DNA of 64,000 nt, taken from assembly GCA_963855995.1 (NCBI GenBank), contig OY979730.1, forward strand, positions 11,013,300-11,077,299. The letters are read 5' to 3'. This DNA is from Muricea muricata. Taxonomy: Eukaryota; Cnidaria; Anthozoa; Malacalcyonacea; Plexauridae. The notes beneath the pieces are model-generated. The model was not told the DNA's origin. It ran no database searches and saw only the letters and a list, made by a program, of their open reading frames with translations. A program made the position numbers and the translations under genes. This document shows, piece after piece, positions 1 through 48,847 of this stretch (its first letter is position 1; every line of letters starts with the position of its first letter).

Positions 1-39
1 GGGTTTACTCTAGCCTATAATTGATTCTAAAACATAAAA

Positions 40-62
40 ATAATTCCGAGCAAGGGAATTAT
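40..62. repeat. Small perfect hairpin at the PLE-derived end
   Basis: ATAATTCC (40-47) and GGAATTAT (55-62) form a perfect 8-bp stem with a 7-nt loop. It recurs in A1 and B of each unit and in the inverted edge copy near 52350-52372, so it belongs to the ancestral element end. Confidence 0.7.
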
Positions 63-435
63 CGTTCAGCTGCGTTGTTTATTTACTGCACCACTTTGCT
101 TGATCACCAGACCGCGTTGGCTATTACACTCGCCCTATGTGGTTTAAATTATTTACCCGTTTTCAACTGAATGAGCTTTAAAAAATAGTTGAACAATATA
201 AACCACTAAAAATCGTAGATGTGTAGCCAGGATTAGACATAAATGAAAATGGTGAGACGTTCTCTGACTAAAATATATTTATTTGTTTACGAGCTTTCGG
301 CCACCAGTCTGTAGCCTTCAACGGGTATATTTATAATGATTTATAAACTGTGAAAGTGTGAAATGAAGCTAGATATGACGTGTATATACATGTGCACTGT
401 GAAATACGATAAGGTGATACTATGTTTTCTTTATT

Positions 436-703
436 AAGATTGTACATTGTCGAGAAAGCGGTTTTGAGTTGTTATCAGCATTCCTGTCTTTGGCAGCTGT
501 ATGCCATGATTCTGGACTTCTAGTTTTAGGCGACTACGGAAATTCCCTGTGTCAATGATTTTCGCGTTGCATGTTTTTCGATGTTTGAACCATTATTATG
601 TTCCTTAACGTTTCTGATGTGTTCAGCCTTTCTTGTTTTCAGAGATCTGCCTGTTTCCCCTAAGTACAGGCAGATATTTTAAAACAAGAAAAGCAAATGA
701 TCA
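436..703 (-). pseudogene. PLE GIY-YIG endonuclease remnant in A1
   Basis: Read on the minus strand, this stretch encodes pieces of the C-terminal GIY-YIG endonuclease of Penelope-like retroelements. They include the region around AEHIRNVK and the end around SKPLPRQCTIL. Compared with the edge copy at 49190-49518, about 30 bp are lost (near 566-577), deleting the segment with the HAWDNDHVIDFD residues, so the fold cannot be intact. No reverse transcriptase sequence was recognised anywhere in the unit. Copies recur at +4944 intervals. The family call is inferred from motif memory, not from a search. Confidence 0.6.
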
Positions 704-885
704 CGCATGGCAATAGTGCCTAGCTGGTCGTAATTCAACCACAATTACTGCAACAGCAAAGCATGACGTATATATATACAAATCGGTGATACTATAGTGC
801 CACCGATTTCTATATATATACGTCATGCTTTGCTGTTGCACTAATTGTGGTTGAATTACGACCAGGTAGGCATTATTGCCATGCG
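704..885. repeat. Long fold-back (85-bp arms, 12-nt loop) in A1
   Basis: The arms at 704-788 and 801-885 are reverse complements with four mismatches that I counted. The loop is 789-800. Each arm contains a TATATATATA run. It looks like a head-to-head junction of two copies of the PLE upstream region, since the same sequence occurs once, in single orientation, in A2 (from about 2464) and in the edge copy at 51600-51665. It recurs every 4944 bp. Confidence 0.9.
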
Positions 886-1515
886 CACATGCATCTATAT
901 ATAGGCTGCTGTTTTTAACGTGCTGTATAAGTTTTATCATAAACATCAAAATATAATTTGCGTGGTCATTTATGCAATCAGCGAAACACATTTCCATTTA
1001 TTTAATACTTATCGTCTCTGTAGTGCCCCAGCAATAATGTTGCCTTCGAAATTAGATTTAAATAGTGATCTGCTTTGTCAATGATGTATATATTGGACGC
1101 CTATAGCTAGGTCATTATATTTGGAAAAGTATGTTTGATCAGAATTTACAAGATCTTCTTCGAGTATAAGAGAAGGCTGATTTCAACACACATTTATTTT
1201 TCAAATGTTTTATTACTCACAAAAATATATGCTCAAGTTGTGATCTTACCCATTTTTGTTATTTGTGATATTGCAAAAGACTCAATTGGATTTATTTAGA
1301 AATAAATTTGTACATAATTTAAAAATGTAATTACACTCAAAAGCAACTTCAGGGTCTTCCTCGACAGAGTATGATTAAATATTATTTGATGAAATGCGAA
1401 CAAAAGCTCGCGAATGGGCTCGAATAACTTCGATTTAATCTAGCGTGTATATTTATGATAATTCTTAACCCTTTGAAAGTGGCAACTAACATGGAAAGTG
1501 GTAACTAACATAGTC

Positions 1516-1580
1516 TAGTGGTAAAGACAATATGTATCCATCAAAATCAATCACTGAGTCCGGGAACAATACCTCCCTAG
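1516..1580 (+). repeat. tRNA-like Pol III motif (A box) in A2
   Basis: TAGTCTAGTGG fits the A-box consensus TRGYNNARNNGG. The downstream B-box counterpart is weak. It is a candidate tRNA-derived SINE head fragment and recurs every 4944 bp. A diverged copy lies at about 50685. Confidence 0.35.
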
Positions 1581-1682
1581 CTTTGCCAAAAATCGTTCTG
1601 GCTTTGGTCAGTTTTAGGAATTAAGCATAGGCTAGAACGTTTAGACAACTTAAACCCACCTGCCGGAGCCTCATAACCAACG

Positions 1683-1745
1683 TAATCCAGTGGTCAAGTA
1701 AAAATGACTCAACAAAGGTGGCTAGGATCAATTCCTGCCCATGCA
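1683..1745 (+). repeat. tRNA-like A box plus B box in A2
   Basis: An A-box-like TAATCCAGTGGTCAAG is followed by a B-box-like GGATCAATTCC near 1725, at tRNA-like spacing. No complete cloverleaf was found. This suggests a decayed tRNA-derived SINE promoter. It recurs every 4944 bp. Confidence 0.4.
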
Positions 1746-3176
1746 TTAAATAGTTTTCGTCAAGTGGAAGAATTATGACCCTTTCCAAAGTATCTTTTTG
1801 TCTATTTTGAAATCTTTTTTAGAAAAGAAGTCGTCAAAATTTCACAACTTCTTTGTATCATACAGTCTGATAAATGAAAATTTTTATTTCGTTCTTAACC
1901 GCACTGACAAAATTTCTGGTAAATGGAGAAAATAACAGTTTTAAAAAATCATCGAAAAAAATTGGACAAAACACCGTGCTCAAAATGCTATGGTTTTTCT
2001 TAACGGTGGGAACCATCTTTTTTTTTTTGCAAAAAAGCCCAAATAAATAATTGAAAAGAATTATGCTATACCACTTACATTAGGGCTATTGAAAAGCATG
2101 ATAAGAGATTGCACACTAGCGTAACCAATTTAAATTAGAAAGTTGCAAAAAGTGTCAGCTGAGAAATTCTGCTACCTTCGAAGGATTAGTCTAGGAATGG
2201 TATAAAAGACAGCATGACGATAGTGAAAAGGACCGGGGTATTGTAATAAAAATTTGCACACGGATGGCACTCGGATGGCTTCGCACAATTGGCCTCGACA
2301 ACCCACCAAATGCGGTTGCCTTTCGACAACGACATCGAATTGACTGCCTCAACCGTCTGTGTTATAACTCCACCACCTCTGGTTCGAAATATAGGGGAGG
2401 GTAGAAGCGGCCCCCAGGCCGTAAGTGCTAAAACCCTGTATCTTCGAATCAGACCATCAAGATATAGTAACACCGATTTGTATATATATACCTCATGCTT
2501 TGCTGTTGCAGTGATTGTGGTTGAATTACGACCGGGTAGACACTATTGCCATGCGCACGTGCACCATGTATAGGATGCCGTTATTAACGTGCTGTATATA
2601 AGTTGTATCATAAACATCAAAATATAACTTCCGTGATCATTTATGGAATCAGCGAACAACATTTCCATTTATTTAATACTTATCGTCTCTGTAGTGCCTC
2701 AGAGTCAGCAATAATGTTGTTCTTCGACATTAGATTTAAATAGTGATCTGTTTAGTTCAATGATATATATTGAACGCCTAAAGCTGGGTCATTAAATTTG
2801 GAAATGTATGTTTGATCAGAATTTCAAGGTCTTCTTTGAGTATAAGGGAAGGCTGATTTCAACACACATTTATTTTTCATATGTTCTACTTACAAACATA
2901 TGGGCTTTTAAAATTCGTAGCACCAGAAACCTACTGTATGCTCAAGTTGTGATCTTATCGATTTTTATTATTTGTGATATTGCAAAAGACTCAATTGGAT
3001 TTATTTAGGAATAAATTTGTACATACATTTAAAAATGTAATTACACTCAAAGCAACTTCAAGATCTTCCTCGACAGACTATGATTAAATATTATTCGATG
3101 AAATGCGAACAAAAGCTCGCGAATGGGTTCAAATAACTTTGAATTAATCTAGCGTGTATATTTATTATAATTCTTA

Positions 3177-3309
3177 CCCCAGACAAAAGCCTATGGGGTT
3201 TGTGACAAGGGCAAGATTTGACCAAAAACTCGTTGACTTGAGACATTTTGCATTGGCCACTAGACTACATGAATCCTTTCACGCCCTTGCCACTTAAATT
3301 GTTTAAGCG
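3177..3309 (-). repeat. 133-bp tRNA-like tail of A2
   Basis: On the minus strand the tail reads GGCAAGG, then an A box (TAGTCTAGTGG), a B box (GGTCAAATC) and CCTTGTC. GGCAAGG and CCTTGTC can pair as a 7-bp acceptor-like stem (one G-U). It resembles a degraded tRNA-derived promoter rather than a functional tRNA. It recurs every 4944 bp. Confidence 0.5.
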
Positions 3310-3741
3310 GGGTTTACTCTAGCCTATAATTGTTCTAAAACATAAAAATAATTCCGAGCAAGGGAATTATCGTTCAGCTGCGTTGTTTATTTACTGCACC
3401 ACTTTGCTTGATCACCAGACCGCGTTGGCTATTACACGCGCCCTATGTGGTTTAAATTATTTACCCGTTTTCAACTGAATGAGCTTTAAAAAATAGTTGA
3501 ACAATATAAACCACTAAAAATCGTAGATGTGTAGCCAGGATTAGGCATAAATGAAAAGGGTGAGACGTTCTCTGACTAAAATATATTTATTTGTTTACGA
3601 GCTTTCGGCCACCAGTCTGTAGCCTTCAACGGGTATATCTATAATGATTTATAAACTGTGAAAGTGTGAAATGAAGCTAGATATGACGTGTATACATGTG
3701 CACTGTGAAATACGATAAGGTGATACTATGTTTTCTTTATT

Positions 3742-4003
3742 AAGGTTGTACATTGTCGAGGAAGCGGTTTTGAGTTGTTATCAGCATTCCTGTCTTTGGC
3801 TGTATGACATGATTCTAGTGCTAGGCGACTACGGAAATTCCCTGTGTCAATGATTTTCGCGTTGCATGTTTTAGTTCGATGTTTGACCCATTATTATGTT
3901 CCTTCATTAACGTTTCTGATGTGCTCAGCCTTTCTTGTTTTCAGAGATCTGCCTGTTTCTCCTAAATACAGGCAGATATTTGAGAACAAGAAAAGCAAAT
4001 GAT
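3742..4003 (-). pseudogene. PLE GIY-YIG endonuclease remnant in B
   Basis: This is the B-block counterpart of the A1 remnant, on the minus strand. It has the same internal deletion and an extra small indel (TTTTAGTTCGATG where A1 has TTTTTCGATG). It recurs every 4944 bp except in unit 10, where the block is replaced by a divergent A1-like copy. Confidence 0.55.
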
Positions 4004-4005
4004 CA

Positions 4006-4187
4006 CGCATGGCAATAGTGGCTACCTGGTCGTAATTCAACCACAATCAGTGCAACAGCAGAGCATCACGTATATATATACAAATCGGTGATACTACAGT
4101 AGCAACGATTTGTATATATATACGTCATGCTCTGCTGTTTCACTAATTGTGGTTGAATTAGGACCAGGTAGCCACTACTGCCATGCG
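4006..4187. repeat. Long fold-back in B
   Basis: The left arm starts at 4006 (CGCATGGCAATAG) and the right arm ends at 4187. The arms are about 83-85 bp with a short central loop near 4089-4103. It is homologous to the A1 fold-back but carries its own substitutions. It recurs every 4944 bp through unit 9. Confidence 0.88.
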
Positions 4188-4811
4188 CACATGCATCTAA
4201 ATATAGGCTGCTGTTATTAACGTGCTGTATAAGTTTTATCATAAACATCAAAATATAATTTGCGTGATCATTTATGCAATCAGTGAACAACATTTCCATT
4301 TATTTAATACTTATCGTCTCTGTAGTGCCTCAGAGTCAGCAATAATGTTGTTCTTCGACATTAGATTTAAATAGTGATCTGTTTTGTTCAATGATATATA
4401 TTGAACGCCTAAAGCTGGGTCATTAAATTTGGAAATGTATGTTTGATCAGAATTTACAATGTCTTCTCTGAGTATAAGAGAAGGCTGATTTCAACACACA
4501 TTTATTTTTCAAATGTTTTATTACTTACAAAAGTATGGGATTTTAAAATTCGTAGCACCAGAAACCTACTGTATGCTCAAGTTGTGATCTTATCGATTTT
4601 TATTATTTGTGATATTGCAAAAGACTCAATTGGATTTATTTAGGAATAAATTTGTACATACATTTAAAAATGTAATTACACTCAAAGCAACTTCAAGATC
4701 TTCCTCGACAGACTATGATTAAATATTATTCGATGAAATGCGAACAAAAGCTCGCGAATGGGTTCAAATAACTTTGAATTAATCTAGCGTGTATATTTAT
4801 AATAATTCTTA

Positions 4812-4944
4812 CCCCAGACAAAAGCCTATGGGGTTTGTGACAAGGGCAGGACTTGACCAAAAACTCGTTGACTTGAGACATTTTGCATTGGCCACTAGAC
4901 TACATGAGCGCTATCACGCCCTTGCCACTTAAATTGTTTAAGCG
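4812..4944 (-). repeat. 133-bp tRNA-like tail of B
   Basis: It has the same length and architecture as the A2 tail. In the units checked its B box reads GGTCAAGTCC, closer to consensus, except in units 4 and 8 (GGTCAAATCC). It abuts the start of the next unit. Confidence 0.5.
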
Positions 4945-7900
4945 GGGTTTACTCTAGCCTATAATTGATTCTAAAACATAAAAATAATTCCGAGCAAGGG
5001 AATTATCGTTCAGCTGCGTTGTTTATTTACTGCACCACTTTGCTTGATCACCAGACCGCGTTGGCTATTACACTCGCCCTATGTGGTTTAAATTATTTAC
5101 CCGTTTTCAACTGAATGAGCTTTAAAAAATAGTTGAACAATATAAACCACTAAAAATCGTAGATGTGTAGCCAGGATTAGACATAAATGAAAATGGTGAG
5201 ACGTTCTCTGACTAAAATATATTTATTTGTTTACGAGCTTTCGGCCACCAGTCTGTAGCCTTCAACGGGTATATTTATAATGATTTATAAACTGTGAAAG
5301 TGTGAAATGAAGCTAGATATGACGTGTATATACATGTGCACTGTGAAATACGATAAGGTGATACTATGTTTTCTTTATTAAGATTGTACATTGTCGAGAA
5401 AGCGGTTTTGAGTTGTTATCAGCATTCCTGTCTTTGGCAGCTGTATGCCATGATTCTGGACTTCTAGTTTTAGGCGACTACGGAAATTCCCTGTGTCAAT
5501 GATTTTCGCGTTGCATGTTTTTCGATGTTTGAACCATTATTATGTTCCTTAACGTTTCTGATGTGTTCAGCCTTTCTTGTTTTCAGAGATCTGCCTGTTT
5601 CCCCTAAGTACAGGCAGATATTTTAAAACAAGAAAAGCAAATGATCACGCATGGCAATAGTGCCTAGCTGGTCGTAATTCAACCACAATTACTGCAACAG
5701 CAAAGCATGACGTATATATATACAAATCGGTGATACTATAGTGCCACCGATTTCTATATATATACGTCATGCTTTGCTGTTGCACTAATTGTGGTTGAAT
5801 TACGACCAGGTAGGCATTATTGCCATGCGCACATGCATCTATATATAGGCTGCTGTTTTTAACGTGCTGTATAAGTTTTATCATAAACATCAAAATATAA
5901 TTTGCGTGGTCATTTATGCAATCAGCGAAACACATTTCCATTTATTTAATACTTATCGTCTCTGTAGTGCCCCAGCAATAATGTTGCCTTCGAAATTAGA
6001 TTTAAATAGTGATCTGCTTTGTCAATGATGTATATATTGGACGCCTATAGCTAGGTCATTATATTTGGAAAAGTATGTTTGATCAGAATTTACAAGATCT
6101 TCTTCGAGTATAAGAGAAGGCTGATTTCAACACACATTTATTTTTCAAATGTTTTATTACTCACAAAAATATATGCTCAAGTTGTGATCTTACCCATTTT
6201 TGTTATTTGTGATATTGCAAAAGACTCAATTGGATTTATTTAGAAATAAATTTGTACATAATTTAAAAATGTAATTACACTCAAAAGCAACTTCAGGGTC
6301 TTCCTCGACAGAGTATGATTAAATATTATTTGATGAAATGCGAACAAAAGCTCGCGAATGGGCTCGAATAACTTCGATTTAATCTAGCGTGTATATTTAT
6401 GATAATTCTTAACCCTTTGAAAGTGGCAACTAACATGGAAAGTGGTAACTAACATAGTCTAGTGGTAAAGACAATATGTATCCATCAAAATCAATCACTG
6501 AGTCCGGGAACAATACCTCCCTAGCTTTGCCAAAAATCGTTCTGGCTTTGGTCAGTTTTAGGAATTAAGCATAGGCTAGAACGTTTAGACAACTTAAACC
6601 CACCTGCCGGAGCCTCATAACCAACGTAATCCAGTGGTCAAGTAAAAATGACTCAACAAAGGTGGCTAGGATCAATTCCTGCCCATGCATTAAATAGTTT
6701 TCGTCAAGTGGAAGAATTATGACCCTTTCCAAAGTATCTTTTTGTCTATTTTGAAATCTTTTTTAGAAAAGAAGTCGTCAAAATTTCACAACTTCTTTGT
6801 ATCATACAGTCTGATAAATGAAAATTTTTATTTCGTTCTTAACCGCACTGACAAAATTTCTGGTAAATGGAGAAAATAACAGTTTTAAAAAATCATCGAA
6901 AAAAATTGGACAAAACACCGTGCTCAAAATGCTATGGTTTTTCTTAACGGTGGGAACCATCTTTTTTTTTTTGCAAAAAAGCCCAAATAAATAATTGAAA
7001 AGAATTATGCTATACCACTTACATTAGGGCTATTGAAAAGCATGATAAGAGATTGCACACTAGCGTAACCAATTTAAATTAGAAAGTTGCAAAAAGTGTC
7101 AGCTGAGAAATTCTGCTACCTTCGAAGGATTAGTCTAGGAATGGTATAAAAGACAGCATGACGATAGTGAAAAGGACCGGGGTATTGTAATAAAAATTTG
7201 CACACGGATGGCACTCGGATGGCTTCGCACAATTGGCCTCGACAACCCACCAAATGCGGTTGCCTTTCGACAACGACATCGAATTGACTGCCTCAACCGT
7301 CTGTGTTATAACTCCACCACCTCTGGTTCGAAATATAGGGGAGGGTAGAAGCGGCCCCCAGGCCGTAAGTGCTAAAACCCTGTATCTTCGAATCAGACCA
7401 TCAAGATATAGTAACACCGATTTGTATATATATACCTCATGCTTTGCTGTTGCAGTGATTGTGGTTGAATTACGACCGGGTAGACACTATTGCCATGCGC
7501 ACGTGCACCATGTATAGGATGCCGTTATTAACGTGCTGTATATAAGTTGTATCATAAACATCAAAATATAATTTCCGTGATCATTTATGGAATCAGCGAA
7601 CAACATTTCCATTTATTTAATACTTATCGTCTCTGTAGTGCCTCAGAGTCAGCAATAATGTTGTTCTTCGACATTAGATTTAAATAGTGATCTGTTTAGT
7701 TCAATGATATATATTGAACGCCTAAAGCTGGGTCATTAAATTTGGAAATGTATGTTTGATCAGAATTTCAAGGTCTTCTTTGAGTATAAGGGAAGGCTGA
7801 TTTCAACACACATTTATTTTTCATATGTTCTACTTACAAACATATGGGCTTTTAAAATTCGTAGCACCAGAAACCTACTGTATGCTCAAGTTGTGATCTT

Positions 7901-9888
7901 ATCGATTTTTATTATTTGTGATATTGCAAAAGACTCAATTGGATTTATTTAGGAATAAATTTGTACATACATTTAAAAATGTAATTACACTCAAAGCAAC
8001 TTCAAGATCTTCCTCGACAGACTATGATTAAATATTATTCGATGAAATGCGAACAAAAGCTCGCGAATGGGTTCAAATAACTTTGAATTAATCTAGCGTG
8101 TATATTTATTATAATTCTTACCCCAGACAAAAGCCTATGGGGTTTGTGACAAGGGCAAGATTTGACCAAAAACTCGTTGACTTGAGACATTTTGCATTGG
8201 CCACTAGACTACATGAATCCTTTCACGCCCTTGCCACTTAAATTGTTTAAGCGGGGTTTACTCTAGCCTATAATTGTTCTAAAACATAAAAATAATTCCG
8301 AGCAAGGGAATTATCGTTCAGCTGCGTTGTTTATTTACTGCACCACTTTGCTTGATCACCAGACCGCGTTGGCTATTACACGCGCCCTATGTGGTTTAAA
8401 TTATTTACCCGTTTTCAACTGAATGAGCTTTAAAAAATAGTTGAACAATATAAACCACTAAAAATCGTAGATGTGTAGCCAGGATTAGGCATAAATGAAA
8501 AGGGTGAGACGTTCTCTGACTAAAATATATTTATTTGTTTACGAGCTTTCGGCCACCAGTCTGTAGCCTTCAACGGGTATATCTATAATGATTTATAAAC
8601 TGTGAAAGTGTGAAATGAAGCTAGATATGACGTGTATACATGTGCACTGTGAAATACGATAAGGTGATACTATGTTTTCTTTATTAAGGTTGTACATTGT
8701 CGAGGAAGCGGTTTTGAGTTGTTATCAGCATTCCTGTCTTTGGCTGTATGACATGATTCTAGTGCTAGGCGACTACGGAAATTCCCTGTGTCAATGATTT
8801 TCGCGTTGCATGTTTTAGTTCGATGTTTGACCCATTATTATGTTCCTTCATTAACGTTTCTGATGTGCTCAGCCTTTCTTGTTTTCAGAGATCTGCCTGT
8901 TTCTCCTAAATACAGGCAGATATTTGAGAACAAGAAAAGCAAATGATCACGCATGGCAATAGTGGCTACCTGGTCGTAATTCAACCACAATCAGTGCAAC
9001 AGCAGAGCATCACGTATATATATACAAATCGGTGATACTACAGTAGCAACGATTTGTATATATATACGTCATGCTCTGCTGTTTCACTAATTGTGGTTGA
9101 ATTAGGACCAGGTAGCCACTACTGCCATGCGCACATGCATCTAAATATAGGCTGCTGTTATTAACGTGCTGTATAAGTTTTATCATAAACATCAAAATAT
9201 AATTTGCGTGATCATTTATGCAATCAGTGAACAACATTTCCATTTATTTAATACTTATCGTCTCTGTAGTGCCTCAGAGTCAGCAATAATGTTGTTCTTC
9301 GACATTAGATTTAAATAGTGATCTGTTTTGTTCAATGATATATATTGAACGCCTAAAGCTGGGTCATTAAATTTGGAAATGTATGTTTGATCAGAATTTA
9401 CAATGTCTTCTCTGAGTATAAGAGAAGGCTGATTTCAACACACATTTATTTTTCAAATGTTTTATTACTTACAAAAGTATGGGATTTTAAAATTCGTAGC
9501 ACCAGAAACCTACTGTATGCTCAAGTTGTGATCTTATCGATTTTTATTATTTGTGATATTGCAAAAGACTCAATTGGATTTATTTAGGAATAAATTTGTA
9601 CATACATTTAAAAATGTAATTACACTCAAAGCAACTTCAAGATCTTCCTCGACAGACTATGATTAAATATTATTCGATGAAATGCGAACAAAAGCTCGCG
9701 AATGGGTTCAAATAACTTTGAATTAATCTAGCGTGTATATTTATAATAATTCTTACCCCAGACAAAAGCCTATGGGGTTTGTGACAAGGGCAGGACTTGA
9801 CCAAAAACTCGTTGACTTGAGACATTTTGCATTGGCCACTAGACTACATGAGCGCTATCACGCCCTTGCCACTTAAATTGTTTAAGCG
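4945..9888. repeat. Array unit 2 (class a, T at the 2628-equivalent)
   Basis: It is almost identical to unit 1. The difference I could find is T instead of C at the position equivalent to 2628. Confidence 0.95.
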
Positions 9889-12800
9889 GGGTTTACTCTA
9901 GCCTATAATTGATTCTAAAACATAAAAATAATTCCGAGCAAGGGAATTATCGTTCAGCTGCGTTGTTTATTTACTGCACCACTTTGCTTGATCACCAGAC
10001 CGCGTTGGCTATTACACTCGCCCTATGTGGTTTAAATTATTTACCCGTTTTCAACTGAATGAGCTTTAAAAAATAGTTGAACAATATAAACCACTAAAAA
10101 TCGTAGATGTGTAGCCAGGATTAGACATAAATGAAAATGGTGAGACGTTCTCTGACTAAAATATATTTATTTGTTTACGAGCTTTCGGCCACCAGTCTGT
10201 AGCCTTCAACGGGTATATTTATAATGATTTATAAACTGTGAAAGTGTGAAATGAAGCTAGATATGACGTGTATATACATGTGCACTGTGAAATACGATAA
10301 GGTGATACTATGTTTTCTTTATTAAGATTGTACATTGTCGAGAAAGCGGTTTTGAGTTGTTATCAGCATTCCTGTCTTTGGCAGCTGTATGCCATGATTC
10401 TGGACTTCTAGTTTTAGGCGACTACGGAAATTCCCTGTGTCAATGATTTTCGCGTTGCATGTTTTTCGATGTTTGAACCATTATTATGTTCCTTAACGTT
10501 TCTGATGTGTTCAGCCTTTCTTGTTTTCAGAGATCTGCCTGTTTCCCCTAAGTACAGGCAGATATTTTAAAACAAGAAAAGCAAATGATCACGCATGGCA
10601 ATAGTGCCTAGCTGGTCGTAATTCAACCACAATTACTGCAACAGCAAAGCATGACGTATATATATACAAATCGGTGATACTATAGTGCCACCGATTTCTA
10701 TATATATACGTCATGCTTTGCTGTTGCACTAATTGTGGTTGAATTACGACCAGGTAGGCATTATTGCCATGCGCACATGCATCTATATATAGGCTGCTGT
10801 TTTTAACGTGCTGTATAAGTTTTATCATAAACATCAAAATATAATTTGCGTGGTCATTTATGCAATCAGCGAAACACATTTCCATTTATTTAATACTTAT
10901 CGTCTCTGTAGTGCCCCAGCAATAATGTTGCCTTCGAAATTAGATTTAAATAGTGATCTGCTTTGTCAATGATGTATATATTGGACGCCTATAGCTAGGT
11001 CATTATATTTGGAAAAGTATGTTTGATCAGAATTTACAAGATCTTCTTCGAGTATAAGAGAAGGCTGATTTCAACACACATTTATTTTTCAAATGTTTTA
11101 TTACTCACAAAAATATATGCTCAAGTTGTGATCTTACCCATTTTTGTTATTTGTGATATTGCAAAAGACTCAATTGGATTTATTTAGAAATAAATTTGTA
11201 CATAATTTAAAAATGTAATTACACTCAAAAGCAACTTCAGGGTCTTCCTCGACAGAGTATGATTAAATATTATTTGATGAAATGCGAACAAAAGCTCGCG
11301 AATGGGCTCGAATAACTTCGATTTAATCTAGCGTGTATATTTATGATAATTCTTAACCCTTTGAAAGTAGCAACTAACATGGAAAGTGGTAACAAACATA
11401 GTCTAGTGGTAAAGACAATATGTATCCATCAAAATCAATCACTGAGTCCGGGAACAATACCTCCCTAGCTTTGCCAAAAATCGTTCTGGCTTTGGTCAGT
11501 TTTAGGAATTAAGCATAGGCTAGAACGTTTAGACAACTTAAACCCACCTGCCGGAGCCTCATAACCAACGTAATCCAGTGGTCAAGTAAAAATGACTCAA
11601 CAAAGGTGGCTAGGATCAATTCCTGCCCATGCATTAAATAGTTTTCGTCAAGTGGAAGAATTATGACCCTTTCCAAAGTATCTTTTTGTCTATTTTGAAA
11701 TCTTTTTTAGAAAAGAAGTCGTCAAAATTTCACAACTTCTTTGTATCATACAGTCTGATAAATGAAAATTTTTATTTCGTTCTTAACCGCACTGACAAAA
11801 TTTCTGGTAAATGGAGAAAATAACAGTTTTAAAAAATCATCGAAAAAAATTGGACAAAACACCGTGCTCAAAATGCTATGGTTTTTCTTAACGGTGGGAA
11901 CCATCTTTTTTTTTTTGCAAAAAAGCCCAAATAAATAATTGAAAAGAATTATGCTATACCACTTACATTAGGGCTATTGAAAAGCATGATAAGAGATTGC
12001 ACACTAGCGTAACCAATTTAAATTAGAAAGTTGCAAAAGGTGTCAGCTGAGAAATTCTGCTACCTTCGAAGGATTAGTCTAGGAATGGTATAAAAGACAG
12101 CATGACGATAGTGAAAAGGACCGGGGTATTGTAATAAAAGTTTGCACACGGATGGCACTCGGATGGCTTCGCACAATTGGCCTCGACAATCCACCAAATG
12201 CGGTTGCCTTTCGACAACGACATCGAATTGACTGCCTCAACCGTCTGTGTTATAACTCCACCACCTCTGGTTCGAAATATAGGGGAGGGTAGAAGCGGCC
12301 CCCAGACCGTAAGTGCTAAAACCCTGTATCTTCGAATCAGACCATCAAGATATAGTAACACCGATTTGTATATATATACCTCATGCTTTGCTGTTGCAGT
12401 GATTGTGGTTGAATTACGACCGGGTAGACACTATTGCCATGCGCACGTGCACCATGTATAGGATGCCGTTATTAACGTGCTGTATATAAGTTGTATCATA
12501 AACATCAAAATATAACTTCCGTGATCATTTATGGAATCAGCGAACAACATTTCCATTTATTTAATACTTATCGTCTCTGTAGTGCCTCAGAGTCAGCAAT
12601 AATGTTGTTCTTCGACATTAGATTTGAATAGTGATCTGTTTAGTTCAATGATATATATTGAACGCCTAAAGCTGGGTCATTAAATTTGGAAATGTATGTT
12701 TGATCAGAATTTCAAGGTCTTCTTTGAGTATAAGGGAAGGCTGATTTCAACACACATTTATTTTTCATATGTTCTACTTACAAACATATGGGCTTTTAAA

Positions 12801-32600: not shown

Positions 32601-34608
32601 TATGCTCAAGTTGTGATCTTATCGATTTTTATTATTTGTGATATTGCAAAAGACTCAATTGGATTTATTTAGGAATAAATTTGTACATACATTTAAAAAT
32701 GTAATTACACTCAAAGCAACTTCAAGATCTTCCTCGACAGACTATGATTAAATATTATTCGATGAAATGCGAACAAAAGCTCGCGAATGGGTTCAAATAA
32801 CTTTGAATTAATCTAGCGTGTATATTTATTATAATTCTTACCCCAGACAAAAGCCTATGGGGTTTGTGACAAGGGCAAGATTTGACCAAAAACTCGTTGA
32901 CTTGAGACATTTTGCATTGGCCACTAGACTACATGAATCCTTTCACGCCCTTGCCACTTAAATTGTTTAAGCGGGGTTTACTCTAGCCTATAATTGTTCT
33001 AAAACATAAAAATAATTCCGAGCAAGGGAATTATCGTTCAGCTGCGTTGTTTATTTACTGCACCACTTTGCTTGATCACCAGACCGCGTTGGCTATTACA
33101 CTCGCCCTATGTGGTTTAAATTATTTACCCGTTTTCAACTGAATGAGCTTTAAAAAATAGTTGAACAATATAAACCACTAAAAATCGTAGATGTGTAGCC
33201 AGGATTAGGCATAAATGAAAAGGGTGAGACGTTCTCTGACTAAAATATATTTATTTGTTTACGAGCTTTCGGCCACCAGTCTGTAGCCTTCAACGGGTAT
33301 ATTTATAATGATTTATAAACTGTGAAAGTGTGAAATGAAGCTAGATATGACGTGTATACATGTGCACTGTGAAATACGATAAGGTGATACTATGTTTTCT
33401 TTATTAAGGTTGTACATTGTCGAGGAAGCGGTTTTGAGTTGTTATCAGCATTCCTGTCTTTGGCTGTATGACATGATTCTAGTGCTAGGCGACTACGGAA
33501 ATTCCCTGTGTCAATGATTTTCGCGTTGCATGTTTTAGTTCGATGTTTGACCCATTATTATGTTCCTTCATTAACGTTTCTGATGTGTTCAGCCTTTCTT
33601 GTTTTCAGAGATCTGCCTGTTTCTCCTAAATACAGGCAGATATTTGAGAACAAGAAAAGCAAATGATCACGCATGGCAATAGTGGCTACCTGGTCGTAAT
33701 TCAACCACAATCAGTGCAACAGCAGAGCATCACGTATATATATACAAATCGGTGATACTACAGTAGCAACGATTTGTATATATATACGTCATGCTCTGCT
33801 GTTTCACTAATTGTGGTTGAATTAGGACCAGGTAGCCACTACTGCCATGCGCACATGCATCTAAATATAGGCTGCTGTTATTAACGTGCTGTATAAGTTT
33901 TATCATAAACATCAAAATATAATTTGCGTGATCATTTATGCAATCAGTGAACAACATTTCCATTTATTTAATACTTATCGTCTCTGTAGTGCCTCAGAGT
34001 CAGCAATAATGTTGTTCTTCGACATTAGATTTAAATAGTGATCTGTTTTGTTCAATGATATATATTGAACGCCTAAAGCTGGGTCATTAAATTTGGAAAT
34101 GTATGTTTGATCAGAATTTACAATGTCTTCTCTGAGTATAAGAGAAGGCTGATTTCAACACACATTTATTTTTCAAATGTTTTATTACTTACAAAAGTAT
34201 GGGATTTTAAAATTCGTAGCACCAGAAACCTACTGTATGCTCAAGTTGTGATCTTATCGATTTTTATTATTTGTGATATTGCAAAAGACTCAATTGGATT
34301 TATTTAGGAATAAATTTGTACATACATTTAAAAATGTAATTACACTCAAAGCAACTTCAAGATCTTCCTCGACAGACTATGATTAAATATTATTCGATGA
34401 AATGCGAACAAAAGCTCGCGAATGGGTTCAAATAACTTTGAATTAATCTAGCGTGTATATTTATAATAATTCTTACCCCAGACAAAAGCCTATGGGGTTT
34501 GTGACAAGGGCAGGACTTGACCAAAAACTCGTTGACTTGAGACATTTTGCATTGGCCACTAGACTACATGAGCGCTATCACGCCCTTGCCACTTAAATTG
34601 TTTAAGCG
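29665..34608. repeat. Array unit 7 (class b, but T at 32292)
   Basis: It has class b bases like unit 3, but site 32292 is T where unit 3 (12516) is C. This is the one difference I found between the two super-repeat copies. Confidence 0.95.
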
Positions 34609-37600
34609 GGGTTTACTCTAGCCTATAATTGATTCTAAAACATAAAAATAATTCCGAGCAAGGGAATTATCGTTCAGCTGCGTTGTTTATTTACTGCACC
34701 ACTTTGCTTGATCACCAGACCGCGTTGGCTATTACACTCGCCCTATGTGGTTTAAATTATTTACCCGTTTTCAACTGAATGAGCTTTAAAAAATAGTTGA
34801 ACAATATAAACCACTAAAAATCGTAGATGTGTAGCCAGGATTAGACATAAATGAAAATGGTGAGACGTTCTCTGACTAAAATATATTTATTTGTTTACGA
34901 GCTTTCGGCCACCAGTCTGTAGCCTTCAACGGGTATATTTATAATGATTTATAAACTGTGAAAGTGTGAAATGAAGCTAGATATGACGTGTATATACATG
35001 TGCACTGTGAAATACGATAAGGTGATACTATGTTTTCTTTATTAAGATTGTACATTGTCGAGAAAGCGGTTTTGAGTTGTTATCAGCATTCCTGTCTTTG
35101 GCAGCTGTATGCCATGATTCTGGACTTCTAGTTTTAGGCGACTACGGAAATTCCCTGTGTCAATGATTTTCGCGTTGCATGTTTTTCGATGTTTGAACCA
35201 TTATTATGTTCCTTAACGTTTCTGATGTGTTCAGCCTTTCTTGTTTTCAGAGATCTGCCTGTTTCCCCTAAGTACAGGCAGATATTTTAAAACAAGAAAA
35301 GCAAATGATCACGCATGGCAATAGTGCCTAGCTGGTCGTAATTCAACCACAATTACTGCAACAGCAAAGCATGACGTATATATATACAAATCGGTGATAC
35401 TATAGTGCCACCGATTTCTATATATATACGTCATGCTTTGCTGTTGCACTAATTGTGGTTGAATTACGACCAGGTAGGCATTATTGCCATGCGCACATGC
35501 ATCTATATATAGGCTGCTGTTTTTAACGTGCTGTATAAGTTTTATCATAAACATCAAAATATAATTTGCGTGGTCATTTATGCAATCAGCGAAACACATT
35601 TCCATTTATTTAATACTTATCGTCTCTGTAGTGCCCCAGCAATAATGTTGCCTTCGAAATTAGATTTAAATAGTGATCTGCTTTGTCAATGATGTATATA
35701 TTGGACGCCTATAGCTAGGTCATTATATTTGGAAAAGTATGTTTGATCAGAATTTACAAGATCTTCTTCGAGTATAAGAGAAGGCTGATTTCAACACACA
35801 TTTATTTTTCAAATGTTTTATTACTCACAAAAATATATGCTCAAGTTGTGATCTTACCCATTTTTGTTATTTGTGATATTGCAAAAGACTCAATTGGATT
35901 TATTTAGAAATAAATTTGTACATAATTTAAAAATGTAATTACACTCAAAAGCAACTTCAGGGTCTTCCTCGACAGAGTATGATTAAATATTATTTGATGA
36001 AATGCGAACAAAAGCTCGCGAATGGGCTCGAATAACTTCGATTTAATCTAGCGTGTATATTTATGATAATTCTTAACCCTTTGAAAGTAGCAACTAACAT
36101 GGAAAGTGGTAACAAACATAGTCTAGTGGTAAAGACAATATGTATCCATCAAAATCAATCACTGAGTCCGGGAACAATACCTCCCTAGCTTTGCCAAAAA
36201 TCGTTCTGGCTTTGGTCAGTTTTAGGAATTAAGCATAGGCTAGAACGTTTAGACAACTTAAACCCACCTGCCGGAGCCTCATAACCAACGTAATCCAGTG
36301 GTCAAGTAAAAATGACTCAACAAAGGTGGCTAGGATCAATTCCTGCCCATGCATTAAATAGTTTTCGTCAAGTGGAAGAATTATGACCCTTTCCAAAGTA
36401 TCTTTTTGTCTATTTTGAAATCTTTTTTAGAAAAGAAGTCGTCAAAATTTCACAACTTCTTTGTATCATACAGTCTGATAAATGAAAATTTTTATTTCGT
36501 TCTTAACCGCACTGACAAAATTTCTGGTAAATGGAGAAAATAACAGTTTTAAAAAATCATCGAAAAAAATTGGACAAAACACCGTGCTCAAAATGCTATG
36601 GTTTTTCTTAACGGTGGGAACCATCTTTTTTTTTTTGCAAAAAAGCCCAAATAAATAATTGAAAAGAATTATGCTATACCACTTACATTAGGGCTATTGA
36701 AAAGCATGATAAGAGATTGCACACTAGCGTAACCAATTTAAATTAGAAAGTTGCAAAAGGTGTCAGCTGAGAAATTCTGCTACCTTCGAAGGATTAGTCT
36801 AGGAATGGTATAAAAGACAGCATGACGATAGTGAAAAGGACCGGGGTATTGTAATAAAAGTTTGCACACGGATGGCACTCGGATGGCTTCGCACAATTGG
36901 CCTCGACAATCCACCAAATGCGGTTGCCTTTCGACAACGACATCGAATTGACTGCCTCAACCGTCTGTGTTATAACTCCACCACCTCTGGTTCGAAATAT
37001 AGGGGAGGGTAGAAGCGGCCCCCAGACCGTAAGTGCTAAAACCCTGTATCTTCGAATCAGACCATCAAGATATAGTAACACCGATTTGTATATATATACC
37101 TCATGCTTTGCTGTTGCAGTGATTGTGGTTGAATTACGACCGGGTAGACACTATTGCCATGCGCACGTGCACCATGTATAGGATGCCGTTATTAACGTGC
37201 TGTATATAAGTTGTATCATAAACATCAAAATATAATTTCCGTGATCATTTATGGAATCAGCGAACAACATTTCCATTTATTTAATACTTATCGTCTCTGT
37301 AGTGCCTCAGAGTCAGCAATAATGTTGTTCTTCGACATTAGATTTGAATAGTGATCTGTTTAGTTCAATGATATATATTGAACGCCTAAAGCTGGGTCAT
37401 TAAATTTGGAAATGTATGTTTGATCAGAATTTCAAGGTCTTCTTTGAGTATAAGGGAAGGCTGATTTCAACACACATTTATTTTTCATATGTTCTACTTA
37501 CAAACATATGGGCTTTTAAAATTCGTAGCACCAGAAACCTACTGTATGCTCAAGTTGTGATCTTATCGATTTTTATTATTTGTGATATTGCAAAAGACTC

Positions 37601-39552
37601 AATTGGATTTATTTAGGAATAAATTTGTACATACATTTAAAAATGTAATTACACTCAAAGCAACTTCAAGATCTTCCTCGACAGACTATGATTAAATATT
37701 ATTCGATGAAATGCGAACAAAAGCTCGCGAATGGGTTCAAATAACTTTGAATTAATCTAGCGTGTATATTTATTATAATTCTTACCCCAGACAAAAGCCT
37801 ATGGGGTTTGTGACAAGGGCAAGATTTGACCAAAAACTCGTTGACTTGAGACATTTTGCATTGGCCACTAGACTACATGAATCCTTTCACGCCCTTGCCA
37901 CTTAAATTGTTTAAGCGGGGTTTACTCTAGCCTATAATTGTTCTAAAACATAAAAATAATTCCGAGCAAGGGAATTATCGTTCAGCTGCGTTGTTTATTT
38001 ACTGCACCACTTTGCTTGATCACCAGACCGCGTTGGCTATTACACTCGCCCTATGTGGTTTAAATTATTTACCCGTTTTCAACTGAATGAGCTTTAAAAA
38101 ATAGTTGAACAATATAAACCACTAAAAATCGTAGAAGTGTAGCCAGGATTAGGCATAAATGAAAAGGGTGAGACGTTCTCTGACTAAAATATATTTATTT
38201 GTTTACGAGCTTTCGGCCACCAGTCTGTAGCCTTCAACGGGTATATTTATAATGATTTATAAACTGTGAAAGTGTGAAATGAAGCTAGATATGACGTGTA
38301 TACATGTGCACTGTGAAATACGATAAGGTGATACTATGTTTTCTTTATTAAGGTTGTACATTGTCGAGGAAGCGGTTTTGAGTTGTTATCAGCATTCCTG
38401 TCTTTGGCTGTATGACATGATTCTAGTGCTAGGCGACTACGGAAATTCCCTGTGTCAATGATTTTCGCGTTGCATGTTTTAGTTCGATGTTTGACCCATT
38501 ATTATGTTCCTTCATTAACGTTTCTGATGTGTTCAGCCTTTCTTGTTTTCAGAGATCTGCCTGTTTCTCCTAAATACAGGCAGATATTTGAGAACAAGAA
38601 AAGCAAATGATCACGCATGGCAATAGTGGCTACCTGGTCGTAATTCAACCACAATCAGTGCAACAGCAGAGCATCACGTATATATATACAAATCGGTGAT
38701 ACTACAGTAGCAACGATTTGTATATATATACGTCATGCTCTGCTGTTTCACTAATTGTGGTTGAATTAGGACCAGGTAGCCACTACTGCCATGCGCACAT
38801 GCATCTAAATATAGGCTGCTGTTATTAACGTGCTGTATAAATTTTATCATAAACATCAAAATATAATTTGCGTGATCATTTATGCAATCAGTGAACAACA
38901 TTTCCATTTATTTAATACTTATCGTCTCTGTAGTGCCTCAGAGTCAGCAATAATGTTGTTCTTCGACATTAGATTTAAATAGTGATCTGTTTTGTTCAAT
39001 GATATATATTGAACGCCTAAAGCTGGGTCATTAAATTTGGAAATGTATGTTTGATCAGAATTTACAATGTCTTCTCTGAGTATAAGAGAAGGCTGATTTC
39101 AACACACATTTATTTTTCAAATGTTTTATTACTTACAAAAGTATGGGATTTTAAAATTCGTAGCACCAGAAACCTACTGTATGCTCAAGTTGTGATCTTA
39201 TCGATTTTTATTATTTGTGATATTGCAAAAGACTCAATTGGATTTATTTAGGAATAAATTTGTACATACATTTAAAAATGTAATTACACTCAAAGCAACT
39301 TCAAGATCTTCCTCGACAGACTATGATTAAATATTATTCGATGAAATGCGAACAAAAGCTCGCGAATGGGTTCAAATAACTTTGAACTAATCTAGCGTGT
39401 ATATTTATAATAATTCTTACCCCAGACAAAAGCCTATGGGGTTTGTGACAAGGGCAGGATTTGACCAAAAACTCGTTGACTTGAGACATTTTGCATTGGC
39501 CACTAGACTACATGAGCGCTATCACGCCCTTGCCACTTAAATTGTTTAAGCG
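34609..39552. repeat. Array unit 8 (class b')
   Basis: It carries all four private variants of unit 4 (for example GTAGAAGTG at about 38131 and GAACTAATC at about 39384), exactly 19776 bp downstream of them. Confidence 0.95.
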
Positions 39553-42500
39553 GGGTTTACTCTAGCCTATAATTGATTCTAAAACATAAAAATAATTCCG
39601 AGCAAGGGAATTATCGTTCAGCTGCGTTGTTTATTTACTGCACCACTTTGCTTGATCACCAGACCGCGTTGGCTATTACACTCGCCCTATGTGGTTTAAA
39701 TTATTTACCCGTTTTCAACTGAATGAGCTTTAAAAAATAGTTGAACAATATAAACCACTAAAAATCGTAGATGTGTAGCCAGGATTAGACATAAATGAAA
39801 ATGGTGAGACGTTCTCTGACTAAAATATATTTATTTGTTTACGAGCTTTCGGCCACCAGTCTGTAGCCTTCAACGGGTATATTTATAATGATTTATAAAC
39901 TGTGAAAGTGTGAAATGAAGCTAGATATGACGTGTATATACATGTGCACTGTGAAATACGATAAGGTGATACTATGTTTTCTTTATTAAGATTGTACATT
40001 GTCGAGAAAGCGGTTTTGAGTTGTTATCAGCATTCCTGTCTTTGGCAGCTGTATGCCATGATTCTGGACTTCTAGTTTTAGGCGACTACGGAAATTCCCT
40101 GTGTCAATGATTTTCGCGTTGCATGTTTTTCGATGTTTGAACCATTATTATGTTCCTTAACGTTTCTGATGTGTTCAGCCTTTCTTGTTTTCAGAGATCT
40201 GCCTGTTTCCCCTAAGTACAGGCAGATATTTTAAAACAAGAAAAGCAAATGATCACGCATGGCAATAGTGCCTAGCTGGTCGTAATTCAACCACAATTAC
40301 TGCAACAGCAAAGCATGACGTATATATATACAAATCGGTGATACTATAGTGCCACCGATTTCTATATATATACGTCATGCTTTGCTGTTGCACTAATTGT
40401 GGTTGAATTACGACCAGGTAGGCATTATTGCCATGCGCACATGCATCTATATATAGGCTGCTGTTTTTAACGTGCTGTATAAGTTTTATCATAAACATCA
40501 AAATATAATTTGCGTGGTCATTTATGCAATCAGCGAAACACATTTCCATTTATTTAATACTTATCGTCTCTGTAGTGCCCCAGCAATAATGTTGCCTTCG
40601 AAATTAGATTTAAATAGTGATCTGCTTTGTCAATGATGTATATATTGGACGCCTATAGCTAGGTCATTATATTTGGAAAAGTATGTTTGATCAGAATTTA
40701 CAAGATCTTCTTCGAGTATAAGAGAAGGCTGATTTCAACACACATTTATTTTTCAAATGTTTTATTACTCACAAAAATATATGCTCAAGTTGTGATCTTA
40801 CCCATTTTTGTTATTTGTGATATTGCAAAAGACTCAATTGGATTTATTTAGAAATAAATTTGTACATAATTTAAAAATGTAATTACACTCAAAAGCAACT
40901 TCAGGGTCTTCCTCGACAGAGTATGATTAAATATTATTTGATGAAATGCGAACAAAAGCTCGCGAATGGGCTCGAATAACTTCGATTTAATCTAGCGTGT
41001 ATATTTATGATAATTCTTAACCCTTTGAAAGTGGCAACTAACATGGAAAGTGGTAACTAACATAGTCTAGTGGTAAAGACAATATGTATCCATCAAAATC
41101 AATCACTGAGTCCGGGAACAATACCTCCCTAGCTTTGCCAAAAATCGTTCTGGCTTTGGTCAGTTTTAGGAATTAAGCATAGGCTAGAACGTTTAGACAA
41201 CTTAAACCCACCTGCCGGAGCCTCATAACCAACGTAATCCAGTGGTCAAGTAAAAATGACTCAACAAAGGTGGCTAGGATCAATTCCTGCCCATGCATTA
41301 AATAGTTTTCGTCAAGTGGAAGAATTATGACCCTTTCCAAAGTATCTTTTTGTCTATTTTGAAATCTTTTTTAGAAAAGAAGTCGTCAAAATTTCACAAC
41401 TTCTTTGTATCATACAGTCTGATAAATGAAAATTTTTATTTCGTTCTTAACCGCACTGACAAAATTTCTGGTAAATGGAGAAAATAACAGTTTTAAAAAA
41501 TCATCGAAAAAAATTGGACAAAACACCGTGCTCAAAATGCTATGGTTTTTCTTAACGGTGGGAACCATCTTTTTTTTTTTGCAAAAAAGCCCAAATAAAT
41601 AATTGAAAAGAATTATGCTATACCACTTACATTAGGGCTATTGAAAAGCATGATAAGAGATTGCACACTAGCGTAACCAATTTAAATTAGAAAGTTGCAA
41701 AAAGTGTCAGCTGAGAAATTCTGCTACCTTCGAAGGATTAGTCTAGGAATGGTATAAAAGACAGCATGACGATAGTGAAAAGGACCGGGGTATTGTAATA
41801 AAAATTTGCACACGGATGGCACTCGGATGGCTTCGCACAATTGGCCTCGACAACCCACCAAATGCGGTTGCCTTTCGACAACGACATCGAATTGACTGCC
41901 TCAACCGTCTGTGTTATAACTCCACCACCTCTGGTTCGAAATATAGGGGAGGGTAGAAGCGGCCCCCAGGCCGTAAGTGCTAAAACCCTGTATCTTCGAA
42001 TCAGACCATCAAGATATAGTAACACCGATTTGTATATATATACCTCATGCTTTGCTGTTGCAGTGATTGTGGTTGAATTACGACCGGGTAGACACTATTG
42101 CCATGCGCACGTGCACCATGTATAGGATGCCGTTATTAACGTGCTGTATATAAGTTGTATCATAAACATCAAAATATAACTTCCGTGATCATTTATGGAA
42201 TCAGCGAACAACATTTCCATTTATTTAATACTTATCGTCTCTGTAGTGCCTCAGAGTCAGCAATAATGTTGTTCTTCGACATTAGATTTAAATAGTGATC
42301 TGTTTAGTTCAATGATATATATTGAACGCCTAAAGCTGGGTCATTAAATTTGGAAATGTATGTTTGATCAGAATTTCAAGGTCTTCTTTGAGTATAAGGG
42401 AAGGCTGATTTCAACACACATTTATTTTTCATATGTTCTACTTACAAACATATGGGCTTTTAAAATTCGTAGCACCAGAAACCTACTGTATGCTCAAGTT

Positions 42501-44496
42501 GTGATCTTATCGATTTTTATTATTTGTGATATTGCAAAAGACTCAATTGGATTTATTTAGGAATAAATTTGTACATACATTTAAAAATGTAATTACACTC
42601 AAAGCAACTTCAAGATCTTCCTCGACAGACTATGATTAAATATTATTCGATGAAATGCGAACAAAAGCTCGCGAATGGGTTCAAATAACTTTGAATTAAT
42701 CTAGCGTGTATATTTATTATAATTCTTACCCCAGACAAAAGCCTATGGGGTTTGTGACAAGGGCAAGATTTGACCAAAAACTCGTTGACTTGAGACATTT
42801 TGCATTGGCCACTAGACTACATGAATCCTTTCACGCCCTTGCCACTTAAATTGTTTAAGCGGGGTTTACTCTAGCCTATAATTGTTCTAAAACATAAAAA
42901 TAATTCCGAGCAAGGGAATTATCGTTCAGCTGCGTTGTTTATTTACTGCACCACTTTGCTTGATCACCAGACCGCGTTGGCTATTACACGCGCCCTATGT
43001 GGTTTAAATTATTTACCCGTTTTCAACTGAATGAGCTTTAAAAAATAGTTGAACAATATAAACCACTAAAAATCGTAGATGTGTAGCCAGGATTAGGCAT
43101 AAATGAAAAGGGTGAGACGTTCTCTGACTAAAATATATTTATTTGTTTACGAGCTTTCGGCCACCAGTCTGTAGCCTTCAACGGGTATATCTATAATGAT
43201 TTATAAACTGTGAAAGTGTGAAATGAAGCTAGATATGACGTGTATACATGTGCACTGTGAAATACGATAAGGTGATACTATGTTTTCTTTATTAAGGTTG
43301 TACATTGTCGAGGAAGCGGTTTTGAGTTGTTATCAGCATTCCTGTCTTTGGCTGTATGACATGATTCTAGTGCTAGGCGACTACGGAAATTCCCTGTGTC
43401 AATGATTTTCGCGTTGCATGTTTTAGTTCGATGTTTGACCCATTATTATGTTCCTTCATTAACGTTTCTGATGTGCTCAGCCTTTCTTGTTTTCAGAGAT
43501 CTGCCTGTTTCTCCTAAATACAGGCAGATATTTGAGAACAAGAAAAGCAAATGATCACGCATGGCAATAGTGGCTACCTGGTCGTAATTCAACCACAATC
43601 AGTGCAACAGCAGAGCATCACGTATATATATACAAATCGGTGATACTACAGTAGCAACGATTTGTATATATATACGTCATGCTCTGCTGTTTCACTAATT
43701 GTGGTTGAATTAGGACCAGGTAGCCACTACTGCCATGCGCACATGCATCTAAATATAGGCTGCTGTTATTAACGTGCTGTATAAGTTTTATCATAAACAT
43801 CAAAATATAATTTGCGTGATCATTTATGCAATCAGTGAACAACATTTCCATTTATTTAATACTTATCGTCTCTGTAGTGCCTCAGAGTCAGCAATAATGT
43901 TGTTCTTCGACATTAGATTTAAATAGTGATCTGTTTTGTTCAATGATATATATTGAACGCCTAAAGCTGGGTCATTAAATTTGGAAATGTATGTTTGATC
44001 AGAATTTACAATGTCTTCTCTGAGTATAAGAGAAGGCTGATTTCAACACACATTTATTTTTCAAATGTTTTATTACTTACAAAAGTATGGGATTTTAAAA
44101 TTCGTAGCACCAGAAACCTACTGTATGCTCAAGTTGTGATCTTATCGATTTTTATTATTTGTGATATTGCAAAAGACTCAATTGGATTTATTTAGGAATA
44201 AATTTGTACATACATTTAAAAATGTAATTACACTCAAAGCAACTTCAAGATCTTCCTCGACAGACTATGATTAAATATTATTCGATGAAATGCGAACAAA
44301 AGCTCGCGAATGGGTTCAAATAACTTTGAATTAATCTAGCGTGTATATTTATAATAATTCTTACCCCAGACAAAAGCCTATGGGGTTTGTGACAAGGGCA
44401 GGACTTGACCAAAAACTCGTTGACTTGAGACATTTTGCATTGGCCACTAGACTACATGAGCGCTATCACGCCCTTGCCACTTAAATTGTTTAAGCG
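39553..44496. repeat. Array unit 9 (class a)
   Basis: It carries the diagnostic bases of units 1 and 5 and opens a third, incomplete super-repeat. Confidence 0.95.
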
Positions 44497-48311: not shown

Positions 48312-48847
48312 TGGACTTCTAGTGTTAGGCGACTACGGAAATTCCCTGTGTCAATGATTTTCGCGTTGCATGTTTTTCGATGTTTGAACCACTATTATGT
48401 TCCTTAACGTTTCTGATGTGTTCAGCCTTTCTTGTTTTCAGAGATCTGCTTGTTTCCCCTAAGTACAGGCAGATATTTTAAAACAAGAAAAGCAAATGAT
48501 CACGCATGGCAATAGTGCCTAGCTGGTCGTAATTCAACCACAATTACTGCAACAGCAAAGCATGACGTATATATATACAAATCGGTGATACTATAGTGCC
48601 ATCGATTTTTATATATATACGTCATGCTTTCCTGTTGCACTAATTGTGGTTGAATTACGACCAGGTAGGCACTATTGCCATGCGCACATGCATCTAAATA
48701 TAGGCTGCTGTTATTAACGTGCTGTATAAGTTTTATCATAAACATCAAAATATAATTTGCGTGGTCATTTATGCAATCAGCGAAACACATTTCCATTTAT
48801 TTAATACTTATCGTCTCTGGATTGCCCCAGCAATAATGTTGCCTTCG
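47806..48847. repeat. Chimeric terminal copy (B-type start, A1-like end)
   Basis: Up to about 48311 this equals B of unit 9. From there to 48847 it is A1-like but divergent. It contains its own fold-back (48503-48684). At 48847/48848 the sequence jumps from the A1 equivalent of about 1045 to the equivalent of about 91, a deletion junction that starts a further copy. Confidence 0.8.

Follow-up and report, generated by a model that had tools for sequence, protein, structure and literature searches.

The locus and its tandem array

The 64,000-bp window analyzed here is a stretch of contig C15 (OY979730.1) of the coral Muricea muricata, C15:11013300-11077299 in assembly GCA_963855995.1, which holds 453,007,491 bases in 74 contigs. 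It contains the right-hand part of a tandem array of a 4944-bp unit, degraded pieces of the same repeat family, and protein-coding genes on the right flank (Table 1). The units are organized in a four-unit higher-order repeat (HOR) of 19776 bp. In our assessment, the array is likely a macrosatellite—probably made of mobile-element fragments—whose four-unit organization was shaped by unequal exchange together with gene conversion.

Autocorrelation across the window gives a tandem period of exactly 4944 bp, and the unit stays in register without insertions or deletions over 1-48312, with at least 99.7% identity between the window's units. Inspection of the flanks of the window, 100 kb on the left and 10 kb on the right, places the left start of the array at about window coordinate -31118 (C15:10982181). 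The whole array comprises 16 units, numbered -5 to 10, with the end of unit 10 altered, plus edge pieces, adding up to about 80 kb; with 16 tandem copies of a kilobase-size monomer of 4944 bp, it has the makeup of a macrosatellite. The first-pass annotation of this DNA recognized the repeat itself and let it end at 44496, which is too short: register is kept to 48312, and family pieces continue to about 52407. At the left edge, a piece at 99.2% identity is followed by one at 84%. On the right, the inverted piece at 51602-52407 matches unit positions 8-796 at 88.7%.

Table 1 Features of the 64,000-bp window, in window coordinates
Feature	Position	Strand	Basis or remark
Tandem array of 4944-bp unit, in register	1..48312		Units 1-9 and 3816 bp of unit 10; extends left to about -31118
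Higher-order block A,B,C,D (units 1-4)	1..19776		Unit comparison
Higher-order block A,B,C,D (units 5-8)	19777..39552		1 difference from units 1-4, in column 2628 of the C unit
Third block of the window, start only (units 9, 10 = A, B)	39553..48312		Unit comparison
Module L of unit 1	1..3309		98% identity with the array unit on C5 (3310 bp) and the unit on C12 (3311 bp)
Module S of unit 1	3310..4944		L shortened by an internal deletion
Degraded GIY-YIG-like peptide remnant in L	518..678	-	Probably Penelope-type, by motif
182-bp palindrome in L, 93% self-complementary	704..885		S has another at 4006-4187
Direct repeat R1 in L	793..1471		Self-comparison
Core Y, single copy per unit	1472..2462		43-mer of Y: 961 genome matches at ≤3 mismatches
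Direct repeat R2 in L	2463..3180		86% identity to R1
Degraded copy of GIY-YIG-like peptide in S	3810..3980	-	Motif resemblance
S-to-L switch at the end of unit 10	48309..48847		62 informative sites: 56 L-like, 4 S-like, 2 neither; 5 private differences
Degraded family pieces, right edge	48848..52407		94% (48848-50144), 85% (50657-51696), inverted 89% (51602-52407)
Better-preserved GIY-YIG-like peptide copy	49258..49518	-	Peptide search
Neurensin/TMEM74-family gene, right flank	57374..58099	-	PF14927, E 2.4e-12
eIF2-alpha exon (S1 domain)	61976..62350	+	PF00575, E 6.9e-15; named from the neighboring exon
eIF2-alpha exon	63045..63425	+	PF07541, E 5.1e-19

A four-unit higher-order repeat

Fifteen columns vary among the ten units of the window, and 14 of them are exactly four-periodic, including columns 2418 and 3438, where the unit classes run a,a,b,b as the first-pass annotation had described for the window. 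At a lag of 19776 bp, the window differs from itself at a single one of 28536 positions (window position 12516), compared with up to 15 differences per unit between unit classes—the organization of a higher-order repeat. There is no difference among units 1, 5, and 9, between units 4 and 8, or, in the part compared, among units 2, 6, and 10; units 3 and 7 are one base apart. The four variants previously noted as private to units 4 and 8 were recovered at columns 3528, 4233, 4779, and 4852, window position 19065 being the 4233 column.

Extending the analysis leftward, a check proposed with that annotation, brings the array to 16 units, and the four-unit pattern persists there. Across units -5 to 10, the phase is kept by 11 of the 15 window columns: 1481, 1506, 2252, 2302, 2738, 3438, 3528, 3639, 3924, 4779, and 4852, with the altered end of unit 10 excluded when scoring the last three. 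The remaining four (2151, 2418, 2628, and 4233) all lose it in the leftmost block, column 2628 also once within the window. Unit -5 has private changes at 173, 4665, and 4921, and unit -2 bears a tract of eight. Taken unit by unit, the leftmost block differs from the next one at 4, 1, 1, and 3 sites plus this tract; the three right-hand blocks are separated by one base. The observed mean distance at lag 4 was compared with that of 20000 shuffled unit orders, excluding the columns of the conversion tract from the distance matrix. It was reached by none of the 20000 for the 16 units and by 8 of 20000 for the ten window units, so that the unit classes are not spread at random over the whole array. 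The four-unit higher-order repeat is thus confirmed and survives the leftward extension.

Blocks this similar are what long-read assemblers can miscount. An assembler might have circled a 19.8-kb loop, which would render the number of blocks, or even the repetition itself, unreal. The three blocks lying about one base apart in 19.8 kb fit such an artefact. Accurate long reads are often no longer than 19.8 kb, and the length of near-identity would then often not be exceeded. However, the leftmost block stands in the same phase and bears its own variants and a conversion tract, family arrays of other periods are present in the genome, and the order of neighboring units should require reads of just about 5-10 kb. 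We therefore regard an assembly artefact as unlikely, while the count of near-identical 19.8-kb blocks is provisional.

Relationships among the units

The first-pass annotation had further proposed a two-unit period nested within the four-unit one, as a sign of successive doublings. Its starting point, column 2628, does read C,T,C,T,C,T,T,T,C,T in the window. Over the whole array, the column runs TTCCTTCTCTCTTTCT, which is no two-unit alternation. Within a block, units A and B differ at one site, and C and D at four (units 7, 8) or five (units 3, 4), versus 10-11 differences for both A-C and B-C, 14 for B-D, and 15 for A-D. Hence, the sister units are the neighbors A-B and C-D. A unit tree, likewise suggested as a check, sets the A and B units apart from the C and D units as two clades, and the periodicity at lag 4 is upheld. 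Mean unit distances at lags 1, 2, 3, and 4 come to 7.5, 12.0, 7.9, and 0.9, respectively, and the lag-2 mean was at or below the observed value in 19997 of 20000 shuffles.

These distances bear directly on a history of successive doublings, in which the whole array would be copied at each step from one unit to two, four, and eight. The 16 units of the array would suit it, as would the lack of any difference between units -1 to 2 and units 7 to 10 at lag 8, and column 2628 alternates in the first six units of the window. However, doubling of a dimer should make sisters of units two apart (abab), whereas sisters are adjacent here, and the lag-2 distance exceeds those at lags 1, 3, and 4; the whole-array run of column 2628 equally disagrees. 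In addition, the leftmost block has diverged and the right three have not, so that the blocks are of unequal age and growth was uneven rather than doubling. Neat doublings are hence highly improbable, and conversion or repeated change better accounts for column 2628.

A composite unit with probable Penelope-like traces

The 4944-bp unit is a composite of a 3309-bp module L, which also builds arrays on C5 and C12, and its 1635-bp derivative S. Compared with itself, it matches at 91% between 1-1471 and 3310-4815 and at 95% between 2463-3309 and 4095-4944. The informative sites of S are mostly R1-like up to about 4267-4288 and mostly R2-like thereafter, apart from a short R1-like run near 4479-4526. 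Because of this switch, S most likely arose by recombination between the two direct repeats of L, with loss of the sequence in between. By eye, boxes resembling those of tRNA-derived short interspersed elements can be seen in core Y and at the end of R2.

Both modules carry a degraded peptide with a GIY-YIG-like motif, which we take to be that of Penelope-like elements (PLEs). PLEs combine a reverse transcriptase with a GIY-YIG domain. Genome-wide, the peptide has 2689 candidates, of which 150 were scored, and relatives with open frames of up to 519 amino acids are present. Pfam searches at E 0.1 and E 10 did not match the peptide, and the unit yielded no reverse transcriptase. Hammerhead ribozymes occur in the pseudo-long terminal repeat (pseudo-LTR) of some PLEs and are not universal; that none was matched at E up to 2 in 40000-64000, which spans one full unit length, therefore carries little weight. 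As judged from these sequence traces, the macrosatellite probably derives from Penelope-like elements.

A coding role of the array was rejected, as the sole start-to-stop frame of at least 150 amino acids in the 64 kb is a flanking gene. Under alternative codes, the longest frame in the unit has 249 codons (table 6, TGA as sole stop) and was taken as chance. The window holds no RNA family at gathering score and no tRNA. Below that score, 44 matches were obtained at E up to 2 in 40000-64000: 42 to microRNA families and two to StyR-3, a bacterial small RNA. Those lying in the unit were set aside as its palindromes and inverted repeats. We infer that the array is without a selected function.

Related arrays elsewhere in the genome

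The repeat family is widespread. At up to three mismatches, a 47-mer of the module end has 585 matches in the genome (217 + 368) and the 43-mer of core Y has 961 (446 + 515), with 0 matches for either backward control. Array positions derived from these probes rest on the first 100 places of each search. Among the matches listed, C2 carries arrays at 6.07 Mb with a spacing of about 3312 bp, at 10.7 Mb with spacings mostly of 1694-1699 plus longer ones, at 16.85 Mb with about 3380, and at 24.2 Mb with mostly about 3302; C3 carries one at 17.85 Mb with 3120 and a single spacing of 1492. Two further arrays, at C4 0.70 Mb (3061) and C15 1.62 Mb (3330), were detected by the peptide alone, and the same module is there a candidate.

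Some of these arrays may bear higher-order structure of their own. At C2:10681204-10839597, the core-Y spacings cycle through 3926, 3392, 1699, 1694, 1694, 1694, and 3397, with variations. Marker distances at this 10.7-Mb array vary (17496, 19196, 18019, 20245, 9013, and 15803), and the spacings among the matches listed may reflect a longer, irregular HOR. At C2:24.2 Mb, spacings among the matches listed suggest a three-unit block. On C5, the array at 18065621-18111944 was compared in full: it consists of 14 units, each about 3310 bp long, of which those at the ends have diverged. Units 8, 9, and 10 differ from units 11, 12, and 13 at 0, 0, and 2 sites—a hint of a three-unit copy, with no HOR established. 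Near this array, at C5:18054279-18058212, long frames of a short amino-acid repeat are probably a minisatellite in two orientations.

One family forming several arrays of different periods in a single genome would make HOR formation comparable locus by locus. A more far-reaching idea is that one mobile-element-derived module seeded many independent noncentromeric arrays, several with their own HORs—of four units in the C15 array, perhaps of three at C2:24.2 Mb and on C5, and longer and irregular at C2:10.7 Mb—with the palindromes causing breaks that restart copying. We consider this doubtful; if true, the module family would be a natural replicate experiment on HOR formation away from centromeres.

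Gene conversion and proposed origin

Exchange between modules is seen in unit -2 (4945 bp, window coordinates -14832 to -9888). Between columns 3166 and 3332, it has eight changes, seven substitutions and one insertion, and 8 of 8 equal the paralogous S-to-L junction, where 4801-4944 meets 1-23. The next differing site downstream has the recipient's base, and no further such change is found upstream. Hence, this stretch is a gene-conversion tract. Two sequence types of the unit, Q and P, are distinguished by ten sites. With polarity set against the C5 and C12 modules, and for three sites in S against the paralogous L, the derived state lies in P at six sites and in Q at four. As both types carry derived states, both had diverged before the blocks multiplied.

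The array probably originated as follows. A deletion between direct repeats of L would have produced the 1.6-kb S, at the C15 locus or before this locus arose, and an L and an S would have joined into the 4944-bp unit. Two unit types would then have become neighbors as Q,Q,P,P. Four-unit out-of-register exchanges would have multiplied this block, giving one older copy on the left and three near-identical ones on the right, and gene conversion among units and modules would have kept neighbors alike while generating the odd sites. As the physical step, we infer unequal sister-chromatid exchange or break-induced replication. Of 13500 snapshots taken from a neutral simulation of block duplication and deletion, 1415 contained an HOR of 2-6 units, and 60 were too uniform to score. 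Period-4 HORs made up 189 of the 13500: 54 AABB-like, 56 ABAB-like, and 79 other. Within this model, such a mechanism would be sufficient, though not proven.

Rolling-circle copying could replace the stepwise exchanges: a 19.8-kb extrachromosomal Q,Q,P,P circle would be copied head-to-tail and reinserted, giving the blocks at one stroke. The near-identity and perfect register of three blocks agree with this, and a review (PMC8122249) gives it as a route proposed for satellites. However, the older left block has the same phase and place, and plain unequal exchange accounts for the array without a circle, which makes rolling-circle copying distinctly unlikely.

Several observations weigh against an origin by unequal exchange and gene conversion, the reading that we prefer. 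The ten P/Q sites all fall within a 2443-bp part of the unit taken as a circle (probability by chance 0.017), and this clustering may reflect an imported tract instead of plain point mutation. In the simulation, the AABB-like period-4 form was reached in just 54 of 13500 snapshots under an ad hoc scoring rule; the four-unit AABB form would thus be possible under the neutral model and is not predicted by it. In the partial unit that precedes unit -5, columns 3639 and 3924 show a Q-like state in place of the P that the phase requires, so that the four-unit phase stops there. The lag-4 test is weak when restricted to the six leftmost units, where 2224 of 20000 shuffles reach the observed value. 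The near-zero divergence of the three right-hand blocks could also stem from assembly or a single rolling-circle event, and in the C5 array, units at lag 3 are on average no closer to each other (mean distance 10.6) than those at lag 1 (9.4).

Flanking genes and the centromere reading

PEX13 lies about 8 kb left of the array, and the neurensin gene about 9 kb right of its in-register part, followed by eIF2-alpha and SLC1. A neurensin-like frame left of the array, at -35811 to -35008, is weak (E 0.0058, below the cut-off), and the array may sit between neurensin paralogues. A 154-amino-acid frame at 54236-54697 looks by eye like a fragment of a HECT-type ubiquitin ligase and has no Pfam match at E 0.1.

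The first-pass annotation had likened the array to centromeric HORs. The likeness holds for the organization: as in alphoid DNA, blocks are more alike than the units inside them, which is what a centromeric or otherwise functional HOR would show. It does not hold for a centromere. Where one main array per chromosome in gene-poor DNA would be expected, genes flank the array on both sides, and family arrays occupy at least four well-separated places on C2 alone. A centromeric or functional role is hence scarcely credible. A clean HOR close to ordinary genes and without a centromere sign implies that HOR organization alone is no centromere marker. The array looks like ordinary copy-and-homogenize repeat evolution, and neither like a centromere nor like a record of neat doublings.

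Comparison with known systems

Tandem PLE copies offer one parallel. As PMC8969392 describes, full-length PLE insertions are directly followed by a second copy, usually 5'-truncated. Such an adjacent copy, with its pseudo-LTR arrangement, could seed a tandem pair, and the two modules of the C15 unit each hold a degraded GIY-YIG-like peptide. Unlike the tandem copies in that account, the C15 array consists of long homogenized repeats with decayed peptide remnants, and the unit is without a detected reverse transcriptase. Literature searches returned no paper title on a Penelope-derived HOR, which is weak evidence of absence.

With the alpha-satellite HORs of primate centromeres, the array shares blocks that are more alike than the monomers within them, and a history of amplification and homogenization (PMC8122249). 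Alpha satellite differs in its 171-bp monomers (PMC2588610) and in arrays that lie at centromeres and can reach several million base pairs (PMC8122249), whereas the C15 array has 5-kb units, spans about 80 kb among genes, and keeps its window units at least 99.7% identical.

Among published systems, the human MaLR "LTR array" megasatellite comes closest as a precedent. As reported in PMC2588610, its monomers of about 3.5 kb are retrotransposon fragments, arranged in six-monomer HORs, with unequal crossing over inferred from array-specific rearrangements. It differs from the four-unit C15 array in its HOR length, in the pericentromeric position of its three largest arrays, in the general location of its arrays in segmental duplications, and in its source, since MaLR monomers are LTR-retrotransposon fragments and the C15 unit is probably Penelope-like. 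Common to both systems, going by PMC2588610 for the human one, are kilobase-size monomers made of mobile-element fragments, many arrays on several chromosomes, and HORs of several monomers.

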